This document shows, piece by piece, positions 16,601 through 23,386 of a stretch of 64,000 bases of DNA (positions are counted from its first letter, which is position 1; each line of letters begins with the position of its first letter). The notes beneath the pieces were generated by a model, which saw nothing but the letters and a program-made list of their open reading frames with translations, was not told the origin of the DNA and searched no databases. The position numbers and the translations under genes are program-made. Source of the DNA: Patiria pectinifera (lineage: Eukaryota > Echinodermata > Asteroidea > Valvatida > Asterinidae); the NCBI GenBank assembly GCA_029964075.1, contig CM057129.1:29441430-29505429 (forward strand), in the 5' to 3' direction.

Positions 16601-19600
16601 GGCACAGTACACAAATCGCATGTCATTCTCACTTCCATTAAGAGTTGCTGCAAAACTAAGTTTAATAGATGAAAGACAAGTTGAAAAGTTTGCAAGTGAA
16701 GCATTTTGTATACAGTTGAGGGCATGAATTTTGGAATATTTGGGAAGTAGGTCCATATGTAGGTTTGGGATCCACAGTTCTTCCAAATCAAGAGGAACAA
16801 TAACAACTTGAAATGGGAACCAAGCAATACAGGGACTGCCCTTTCTAAGGCTGGTTTGTAATGAGATGTGATTTCCTTGCTTCACAGCATGTACAGGTTG
16901 AATAGTGTCGAGCTAGCTCTGAATAGTGACCCAAAAGCAAAAGAAGAGGACAAATTGAGAGATTGTCAAGTGTCAATGAGACTTGTAGTCGAGTCCTCAC
17001 AAGTTAAATGCAAATCAATCACCCCGAATTTCATGAGCAATTCAAATGAACTGAGGCAAAGACATTCCTTTGTCATGCTCTGTTACTAGAGACCTTGTGA
17101 TTGTCTTATTACTTTGAGAATTGTAACAGACTCAGGGTTCTGTTAACTTCATTGTGTTCAGACCAAAACATTCATTACCTTGCGATTATTATTCTTCACA
17201 TATACATGTATGTGTGAGCTTACAGTTTGGACAGCACAGGTACAGAGGGGGCAAGTCAAAATCAGGCTCTTGTCAATTTTCTTTCTTTGTAAAAACCCTG
17301 TTATTATAATGACTGAGGACAGAACCTCTCCAGACTAGACTCACCTTCCGTCTGCTAACTGCAAGGCCTTCAGTCCAGCCACTATGGCCGGTTTATTGAC
17401 CCGCCTCAGGTCATCGCCCAGAATGAGTAGACAAGCCAGCCCGGTGTAGGTCATGGCGATGTGACCCCAGTCATAAGGATGACTCTGTGATGGGGATTCC
17501 TATAAGGGTCCAAACATTAAATATGGGGTTTCTATCTTATCTTGGAGTTCATTTTGTAACATTTGCAATCAAGTTGTGAAGAAAAAAACAGAAAGTCTGC
17601 TTGTTATTTTACTTTAATCAATATCTTACCGTGGAAGGATTGTAAGGTGTCCCAATTGTTGATGATCCCCTGAAACCGCAATGTTTAGATGTTTCTTCTG
17701 TAACATATACATGTAAAGCAACACAATTAAAAATATCACCACTACCATGCGTAAACTATAAAGAAAGGATGTGTGTATAGGTTTGTTTCTGCATTCAAAA
17801 GGGGGCGTTGATCACTACAGGACAATAGGGTCCACACTTCCCAAAGGTCGACAATTGACGATCGTGTACAAAACATATGGAAGGTCTTCCTAAAAAATTA
17901 AGGTACAAACAAAGAGGGACAATAGGGGGTCCATGATTGCAGGTACAATGTACATTGTAAATACACACTTGTATGTGTGTGTACTTTTACAAGCTAGGCG
18001 CTCAACTGTGGAGCGGTCACTTGACCGCAAAGTGGGCACTCGCCCACGAAGCAGGCAAAGTCTCGAAGTTAAAATGAATTCTGTAGTGTTTGGGTTCGGA
18101 GATCCAATAATTAGAACAATTACCATAGTGATTTGGATCAGGCAGAACCTGCAATGAATAGATCCAATCAATAATGTCTTCTTTGTCCTTTTCGATTGCA
18201 CCTAGCGAGTCAAGCACGTCCAAGCCAGATAGGCCAAAGAAACACACCGTTAATCTGGAAATGAAAATGCAAACAAAAAAATGTTTCATCAATCTTCATT
18301 TCACCAAATCAAAACATCTTCTTGTTCATCAAAATTAATCTAATTCAACATGGACCAACAAGGTAGGCAAAGTAGGTTAACTGTGCAGCGGTTCTGTGGG
18401 AAAAAGCTTGGTTGGGATGTATGTTTTTGTACTTAATTAGTGTTTTGTGCTGACAACAATTTTGCGGGGTTCTACATGTAACTCTAGGAGTAACTCCGAC
18501 CATGTACATGTACAAAAGCATGTAGAACTCTTTCAAATTCTGGTATTCACATTTAGGCTTAGTTTGTTGTAGATTATTTTTGCTTTAGAAGCATGTACTC
18601 ACCCTCTTTAAAGGCTAATCAGAAAGTACTGCCTTTTTCAATTTCAGATTTCTATTTTTCATGAAATTTCCTGTTGAAATTTTGATAAGCAAATGTATGT
18701 AAACAAATCTGGAAATTTCACAAAAAATAGACATCTGAAAAAGGCAGCTCTTTCTGATTAGCCTATAATTTATAAAGAGGGTGAGTATGCTTTTATTTTT
18801 TCTAAAGCAAAAATCACCTACAAACTAAGCCTAAATGTGAAAATCAAAATTTGACAAAGACAAAGTTCTACATGTTTTTGTACATGGTGGAAGTGTGGCC
18901 TTTATTTACGGAGGTAGTCCAGTAAATTGGCCACATTTATGGGGCTAGGATTTTGCCAATTAAATTGTAATTAAATGAACTTAATAATTAAAAGTAATAA
19001 AAGTTGACTCAACCGTTTTCCAACTAATAAATTAATTTAATTAATTAGTCGGACAATGGTCGAGTTGACGTTTACAGTTGAATGCACAACGGTCAAGTTA
19101 ATGTCGAGCGCAATTTGAGTCCCCCACGCAAGTTTAAACTTGCGCGAGGGACTCCTGAAGCACGCAAATTACACCGCGCCATTTTAATTTGCGTGCGCAA
19201 GTTTAAACTTGCGCAAATGCGATCGCAACCTTCTTTTGCGGGCGGGATTTTCATTGATGAAGAATTTTTTTTTCAAAACACGAGTACATGGAGAAATAAT
19301 GGAATATATGAATGAATAAAGAAATAAATAGAAAGGGGAATTCAATTAGCGTCAATGAAAAGAAACATTGAGATTTAGCAGTGCTTATCAGAAAAGTTGT
19401 TTAAGGGTACGTGGGGGCGGGGCCGGGGAGGGGACTGGGCAAGCAATCAACTTAAGCACACTAGCGGCGATTGCTTGGAAAGTGTACTGAAGTTGTTCAA
19501 TAATGGAGACCAGCTTCAAGTTTTTTGCTTTGTAAACCTAATTGGCATTTTATTTATATTCTTGAATGAAAATAAATCATAATTTCCTAGGTGTAACCCG

Positions 19601-22600: not shown

Positions 22601-23386
22601 CTCGCGTGGGTTTTTGACTATGCTACTGTGATGGTGCTACCAAAGTATGGTGAATCGGTGGAGCGCTAGTATGGAGGGGTACCCGTAATTCAGCGCTCCA
22701 CTCAGTAGAGCTAGTAAAATGGTAATTATTTTAAAAAGTAAATAAATTTGCAAATGATTTAATTAATGAATTTAATAAAATGTTTCAAAAAAAGGCATTG
22801 AGGCATTGTCTCCCGAAGCTCAGTGATGCTATTAAATCGGAGAAAAAAATTCTGCTTTAAAAATAATGTTACATATCTGCATGAGTTTACCAGGGAAAAA
22901 TAGTTTAGCGGCTCTGTATGCGTGGCCGGGAAAATCTATGCAGTGCGCAAGTTTAAACTTGTGTGCGCAATTTGTAGCAAGGAAATGAATGCGCGCGCAA
23001 GTTTAAACTTGCGTGCGCGGAGATTTAAACTTGCGCGCGGAAGTTTAAACTTGCGCGGGGGACTCACTTTGCGCTCGACATTAACAACAGACGAGTTGGT
23101 AAACGGTTGTCTTTGGATGGTCCGAGTCGAGTTGGCAAACGGTCGAGTTGACCACACTGTTGGAACAATGGCATGCAACTGCAAGTGGCAGACAGGGTGC
23201 AAACTTCAGTTGTTTCCCGATGAAATTTCATATGTTCAATACTTACCTGCTGGTGTCGAGTGAGGTATAACTCTGCGGTAGAATATGCAAACATCTGGAG
23301 AAAAATTTAATGTGTTTAGCCTTCAAAAATGGAATGTCTTTTTCGTGTGGTTGTTCAATTTCCGCTGCTGCAGTGGGCGCGGCCAT
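13647..23386 (-). CDS. PGGT1B: Geranylgeranyltransferase type I beta subunit, complete (9 exons)
   Basis: Catalytic beta subunit that pairs with the shared FNTA alpha subunit and adds geranylgeranyl to CaaX proteins ending in Leu, such as Rho, Rac and Rap GTPases (family knowledge). Exons, high to low: 23247-23386, 18124-18254, 17630-17697, 17345-17499, 16523-16655, 16137-16182, 15404-15588, 14651-14759, 13647-13798. They join in phase to 372 residues (human about 377). Recognisable stretches include [87 protein letters not shown] and [13 protein letters not shown]. Zinc ligands Asp274, Cys276 (PVDTCYSFW) and His326 are present. The start MAAPTAAAE has a good Kozak context (A at -3, G at +4). 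A Met 17 codons upstream in frame is less likely. Intron 1 (18255-23246) is swollen by nested transposons. The gene faces PIGO head-to-head. Confidence 0.97.
13980..14603. mobile_element. Non-autonomous hAT element with perfect 8-bp target duplication
   Basis: The ends CAGAGTTGTAACGAGTCA and GACTCGAGTCATTACAACTCTG are inverted repeats. GCACCCAG occurs directly on both sides (13972-13979 and 14604-14611). The 624-bp body has two blocks rich in (GACTCGAG)TCGAGTC subterminal repeats, about 14010-14120 and 14405-14600. It has no transposase, so it needs a helper. It sits in the last PGGT1B intron, 47 bases from the exon at 14651. Confidence 0.92.
14985..15060 (-). mobile_element. tRNA-derived SINE head (minus strand)
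   Basis: On the minus strand: TAGATAGCTCAGTTGATAGA (box A-like), then TATGTTCAAATCCCATG (box B-like) at tRNA spacing. The acceptor and anticodon stems do not pair well, so I call it a tRNA-derived element and not a functional tRNA. It lies in PGGT1B intron 7. Confidence 0.55.
15100..15165 (+). mobile_element. tRNA-like SINE head (plus strand), divergent from its neighbour
   Basis: AAGTCCAGTTGGTAGAGCAC resembles box A, and ACAGATTCAAATCCTGTTC resembles box B. It points away from the minus-strand tRNA-like unit about 40 bp to its left. Confidence 0.5.
17815..17960 (+). repeat. Dispersed repeat, copy 3
   Basis: Carries GTGTACAAAACATATGG, AAATTAAGGTACAAACAAAG and GGACAATAGGGGGTCCATGA, shared with the two copies in sorting nexin intron 4. 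Confidence 0.6.
18500..18887. repeat. Palindromic foldback repeat, arms about 170 bp
   Basis: The left arm (CATGTACATGTACAAAAGCA, ATTTAGGCTTAGTTTGT, ACTCACCCTCTTTAAAGGCT, CTGCCTTTTTCA) recurs in reverse complement on the right (TGAAAAAGGCAG, AAAGAGGGTGAGTATGC, ACAAACTAAGCCTAAATGT, CATGTTTTTGTACATGG) around a loop near 18690. Probably a small foldback transposon in PGGT1B intron 1. Confidence 0.85.
19782..20345 (+). mobile_element. TIR element inserted in outer X, carrying a tRNA-like promoter
   Basis: The ends share ATATTTTGCCGGAG in inverse orientation within 22-bp repeats (three mismatches). Flanks TATTATTTT (19773-19781) and TATTGTTTT (20346-20354) match at 8 of 9 bases and are both derived from the same X sequence, so they are probably a 9-bp target duplication. 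Subterminal GGTTTGCCG repeats are present. A 9-bp duplication suggests a Mutator-like class; the assignment is uncertain. Confidence 0.75.
19925..20035 (+). mobile_element. tRNA-derived SINE-like unit
   Basis: TAGCACAGTCGG fits the pol III box A consensus. GAGTTCGACCCC, about 40 bases later, fits box B. A T-rich stretch follows. The unit lies inside the 19782-20345 element and is either captured by it or part of it. It is not a folded functional tRNA. Confidence 0.6.
20550..22713 (+). mobile_element. Foldback element F, long arms and 9-bp target duplication, itself interrupted
   Basis: Inverted ends TAGCTCTACTGAGTGGAGCG and CGCTCCACTCAGTAGAGCTA are flanked by GTAAAATGG (20541-20549 and 22714-22722), a perfect 9-bp duplication of X sequence. 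Without the nested X copy (20627-21905 plus GTAG) it is about 880 bp: two nearly perfect arms of about 415 bp around a loop of about 45 bp near 22247-22290. Long foldback arms with 9-bp duplications fit non-autonomous Mutator-like elements. No coding region. It interrupts the outer X copy. Confidence 0.88.
20627..21905 (-). mobile_element. Inner, complete copy of element X (1279 bp)
   Basis: The minus strand reads TGTCGAGCGCAATTTGAGTC to CACTTTGCGCTCGACA, with GTAG on both sides (20623-20626 and 21906-21909). The GTAG lies within the left arm of F, so this was the last insertion of the stack. It shows the uninterrupted form of X. Both ends carry several GCGCAAGTTTAAACTTGCGC palindromes, and it has no long open frame. 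Confidence 0.92.

Follow-up and report, generated by a model that had tools for sequence, protein, structure and literature searches.

A nested stack of DNA transposons in the first intron of PGGT1B of Patiria pectinifera and the landing-site preference of one of its families

Introduction

Transposons lying within other transposons record the order in which they arrived. Among other things, the work on TinT uses nested transposons as a relative clock (PMC3014933), and interruption analysis, in the part of its account that concerns us here, derives the order of elements from their nesting (PMC2517846). Nested elements and such use of them have been known for a long time, and a stack of them is an ordinary, common kind of genome debris. 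Some transposon groups are also characterized by their target sites; among the targets given in the description of the Ginger elements, Ginger1 duplicates CCGG or CCGT and Ginger2 prefers RTATAY (PMC2836005).

Here, we describe a stack of three element families, termed X, G and F, in intron 1 of PGGT1B. Every junction of this stack can be checked within the window, as the second X element (X2) serves as an intact reference for the first (X1) and the second arm of F as an intact reference for the X2 site. What makes the locus of interest is mainly how clean the stack is, together with the target rule of X.

Materials and methods

The window is the whole stretch of 64,000 nucleotides that was analysed (C1:29441430-29505429). 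The genome searched comprised 613.5 Mb in 1020 contigs, and each DNA search covered 40 scored candidates. The query used for the internal junctions spanned the left junction between X1 and G.

Results

PGGT1B lies on the minus strand of the window, with its exons 1 and 2 flanking the stack (Table 1). The two exons, when joined, matched the geranylgeranyl transferase type-1 beta chain (1n4p_B, E 5.9e-26), and PF00432 was matched by another exon of the gene. With limits predicted from the open reading frames, intron 1 spans approximately 18256-23246, of which the stack (19102-23080) occupies about 80%, in line with the first-pass annotation that had described it as the bulk of the intron. The stack is presumably tolerated since intron 1 would still splice. 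Another PGGT1B intron contains a repetitive stretch (14366-14626), seen in translation and perhaps a minisatellite. A plus-strand gene with a phosphodiesterase domain (PF01663), which we take to be PIGO, starts near 23668, and the PDB offered no match for it up to an E of 1e-5; the two genes have head-to-head starts about 280 bp apart (23386-23668).

Table 1. Features of PGGT1B intron 1 and its surroundings, in window coordinates.
Feature	Position	Strand	Basis or remark
Older palindromic repeat, on the exon 2 side of the stack	~18507..18935		right limit is the query end
X1 left flank, partly diverged dispersed repeat continuing at 23085	18941..19101		closed-up flanks match other loci
X1, first X element, interrupted	19102..23080	+	duplication TTAA
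X1, own sequence	19102-19781, 20355-20549, 22723-23080	+	1233 bp closed up
G, 564 bp, ends GGYAKTGKATATTTTGCCGGAG, in X1	19782..20345	+	duplication, 8/9 bases
F, foldback, in X1	20550..22713		perfect 9-bp duplication, complementary arms
F, own sequence	20550-20626, 21910-22713		~881 bp once X2 and one copy of its duplication are removed
X2, second X element, 1279 bp, in left arm of F	20627..21905	-	duplication GTAG
X1 right flank, rest of the dispersed repeat	23081..23170		closed-up flank matches
PGGT1B exon 1, coding part	23247..23386	-	ORF and 1n4p_B match; predicted splice site

The stack itself stands on older ground. X1 sits in an older, diverged dispersed repeat: among 52 other matching stretches listed, some of them from one locus, 38 ran across the closed-up X1 site, at 69-89% identity. 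The palindromic repeat at 18507-18935 was 80-87% identical to 39 other copies that were scored. The four insertions first proposed are present as a stack, but the number of repeat copies in the intron as a whole is at least six rather than four.

Each of the four insertions carries a target duplication. X1 is enclosed by TTAA (19098-19101 and 23081-23084) and X2 by GTAG (20623-20626 and 21906-21909). The roughly 9-bp duplication noted earlier at G is present, with eight of nine bases in agreement (TATTATTTT at 19773-19781, TATTGTTTT at 20346-20354; one mismatch in nine), and the one noted at F is indeed perfect, with GTAAAATGG on both sides (20541-20549 and 22714-22722). X1 and X2 share the ends TGTCGAGCGCAA as well as subterminal palindromes with GCGCAAGTTTAAACTTGCGC as their building block. 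Closed up, X1 is 95.7% identical to X2 over shared columns; the later copy belongs to the same family as the first. X2 is inverted relative to X1, and their arm pairs are 95-97% complementary. In F, a complementarity of 98-99% between the arms extends through most of the element. Palindromes and dispersed repeats are hard to assemble, and collapsed or misjoined repeats could in principle mimic a stack. A misjoin would not, however, yield the duplication expected for the family at every junction, and we consider an assembly artefact very unlikely.

Cutting out each insert together with one copy of its duplication produced uninterrupted sequence at the G, F and X2 sites. At the G and F sites, closed-up X1 agrees with X2 apart from scattered differences. 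The closed X2 site equals the other arm of F in every one of 40 bases. The placement of X2 within the arm of F at GTAG thus finds its exact empty site in F's other arm. With four duplications present, the ends confirmed and the three inner junctions restored, the four-insertion stack in PGGT1B intron 1 held up as first described. Because of the duplications and the restored junctions, X1 preceded G, X1 preceded F, and F preceded X2; the annotated order of X1, then G and F, then X2 is upheld on the same basis. The inverted pieces might instead have arisen from inversion or recombination between two X copies, without any insertion of X2, and the inverted orientation of X1 and X2 with long complementary arms does make later inversions possible. 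We give this reading next to no credence, as X2 is an entire element, bounded on either side by its ends and a 4-bp duplication, and an exact empty site exists in F's other arm.

In a tree of X copies, the private branches were 0.014 for X1 and 0.019 for X2. Since X2 has no fewer private changes than X1, divergence gives no independent support for the order. Two copies (L004_1501 and L035_1500) were kept in the wrong orientation in this tree and form a false clade; X1 and X2 fall outside it, in the other group.

All three families recur across the genome. The exact X end pattern had 265 + 265 matches (reversed control 0), the left ends of G 502 + 459 with up to 2 mismatches (control 1), and the ends of F 251 + 258 with up to 3 mismatches (control 0). 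As the ends recur genome-wide while the controls gave 0-1, chance is excluded. A search for further copies with duplications of their own, proposed in the first-pass annotation, succeeded for X (32/38), F (10/10) and G (28/30). Both ends were read in 38 other X copies, counting the longer relatives. Of these, 32 had a perfect 4-bp duplication and six did not, the independent duplications numbering at most 31 because L003 and L004 have their flanks in common. The count started from 43 rows, 32 with a duplication, and became 38 when five wrong end pairings were dropped, each of which had an end in common with a duplication-bearing copy; L015 and L018, with a single recognised end, are not included. 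For G, 28 of the 30 loci, the window's included, showed an AT-rich duplication of 9-10 bp with at most one mismatch, and two lacked a 9-bp duplication. All ten other F copies read had a perfect 9-bp duplication, two of them with identical flanks.

F is one foldback family of many lengths, with end spacings ranging from 66 bp (C14:54784733-54784798) to about 3.1 kb (C18:3661645-3664787) and a spacing class near 1.12 kb, three of which are on C13. Within G, the stretch at about 19922-20000 resembles tRNA A and B boxes by eye, and the end of F, TAGCTCTACTGAGTGGAGC, resembles part of this stretch. We rejected a tRNA in G, as ARAGORN found 0 tRNA genes in the window; Rfam gave no tRNA match in 18000-24000 at E up to 0.1. 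The 16 Rfam matches in 18000-24000 were discarded, all being under gathering scores and on palindromic repeats.

The internal junctions of the window were looked for in other copies, since shared junctions had been named as the sign of a composite family, and none was found at 29 G loci, 10 F copies and 38 X copies. The other main X matches end at query positions 679-681, which is the left end of G (query 681 is window 19781). One weaker match, C3:18144539-18144748 (84%), runs about 23 bases past the left X1-G junction into the X1 side; these bases are probably AT-rich flank, and the X copy beside this match sits inside G at another point. Other G and F copies end at the element ends, with a few running 2-7 bases further at F. 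All three inner inserts are flanked by a duplication of their host element's sequence, and insert and host also occur separately elsewhere. Because the families occur at other sites with their own duplications, these are nested insertions.

We read the longer X-ended relatives for an autonomous partner of X, namely eight loci (L069-L076) together with the central 4.0 kb of one more, L077. Inspection by eye recognised no transposase in their open reading frames, and seven of them (L069, L070, L072-L076) had no stop-to-stop frame longer than 206 residues. L071 contains an open LINE-type frame of 1005 residues between short X ends. These ends, of about 39 and 174 bp, are flanked by a perfect GAGT duplication (54-3311 of the locus; C5:1607540-1610900), and about 1.07 kb of the X interior is missing. 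In L077 (C5:17403200-17407200), reverse transcriptase/RNase H-like frames, presumably of DIRS type, lie inside a 9.3-kb pair of X-family ends.

Such long foreign inserts enclosed by X-family ends (L071 and the 9.3-kb L077), along with the single outer duplication TTAA around the whole stack, would suit a composite of X1, G, F and X2 that moved into the intron as one unit. Yet each of the three inner elements is flanked by duplicated sequence of its own host and is common on its own, and no copy read sits at the window's site, so we regard a composite as very improbable. We have very high confidence in the reading that the intron contains non-autonomous cut-and-paste DNA transposons nested in one another. 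No transposase was recognised for X, G or F.

The duplications of X also disclosed where it lands. TR precedes and YA follows the duplication in 29 of the 32 X copies, giving the target TR-NNNN-YA, and TR stands at 460 of the 530 exact X ends genome-wide (87%) against a background frequency of 13.7% in the fetched loci. X shows a strict landing-site preference, for TR-NNNN-YA rather than TTAA. The X2 site, TG-GTAG-CA, fits the rule fully and the X1 site, AG-TTAA-CA, partially. Across the 32 perfect duplications at other loci, 31 different words occur, TTAA not among them. The earlier description of X as inserted at TTAA is right about X1, where that duplication is present, but the word is incidental. 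With none of the 32 other perfect duplications reading TTAA, piggyBac or another TTAA-specific element was ruled out for X.

Elsewhere in the genome, too, the three families are inserted into one another. We found F in an X copy (L006, duplication GCGCGCATG), X in F (L036, TTCC) and X in G (L012, AGAA; L016, GAGC). It follows that X insertions took place both before and after those of F and G; the proposal that its activity spanned F is thereby supported by these four loci in addition to the stack order. Another locus (L062) has G in X at X2 coordinate ~1037-1045, compared with 571-586 in the window.

Among the best-scoring copies, G matches occurred in 6 of 29 X loci (L010-L038), where the end counts predict 0.16, an expectation that is too low because BLAST finds G copies of about 85-89% identity that the end count probably missed. 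X matches occurred in 4 of 29 G loci (L040-L068; 0.07 expected), and F matches in 2 of 29 X loci and 1 of 29 G loci. That X and G are neighbours far more often than end counts predict is a lead only. Two G copies, 92% and 84-86% identical to that of the window, have X at about the same G position (C6:19813388-19814640 and C3:18144748-18145947, respectively), with TAGAGC beside the X end in both, which may reflect either a hot spot or shared history.

Discussion

The course of events was very probably as follows. X1 inserted into a diverged repeat within PGGT1B intron 1 through a 4-bp staggered cut, followed by G and F, in either order, which entered X1 through 9-bp staggered cuts. X2 arrived last, through a 4-bp cut into an arm of F and in the opposite orientation. 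We read the staggers from the duplications and infer the enzymes: being non-autonomous, X, G and F would have been moved in trans by enzymes encoded elsewhere, in the case of X perhaps by an integrase-like, Ginger-type transposase.

The target rule of X constrains the type of enzyme moving it and is the one transferable result of this analysis, testable once an autonomous partner of X is found. We speculated that X might belong to an undescribed group of integrase-like transposons, whose enzyme would need a flexible pyrimidine-purine step, TR, directly outside each end of the 4-bp staggered cut, leading to the palindromic TRNNNNYA with free central bases, and that X, G and F might prefer to land in or beside one another. 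Taken together, this proposal seems to us rather doubtful. Among the papers listed in a literature search on the target rule and the ends of X, none concerned transposons by title; a second listing included papers on Ginger and KolobokP.

The duplications of G (9-10 bp at 28 of the 30 loci) fall within the 8-11 bp range of MULEs, and G may perhaps be moved by a MULE-type enzyme encoded elsewhere. Duplications of 8-11 bp are not specific to MULEs, as other superfamilies have them too, and G could come from another 9-bp superfamily. F resembles MULE/Rehavkus, as far as that account describes them, in its 9-bp duplications (MULE range 8-11 bp) and its long terminal inverted repeats (PMC6446971). 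F differs in being nearly all inverted repeat, with no transposase seen in it; a MULE-type enzyme encoded elsewhere would probably move it.

For X, the closest likeness is with Ginger. Among the features given for Ginger are TGTNR ends, those of X being TGTCG, and a 4-bp duplication, found in 32 of the 38 X copies (PMC2836005). In contrast to the targets named there for Ginger1 and Ginger2, the central bases within TR-NNNN-YA are free, and inspection of L069-L077 by eye found no integrase-like gene for X. As no transposase was recognised, X stays unclassified, with Ginger-like features.

The stack as a whole is closest to what TinT (PMC3014933) and interruption analysis (PMC2517846) exploit, in that the insertion of one element into another gives the order of activity. 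Where those approaches, in the parts of the two accounts considered here, count mammalian repeats genome-wide, the order in PGGT1B intron 1 is read at one locus from small DNA elements.
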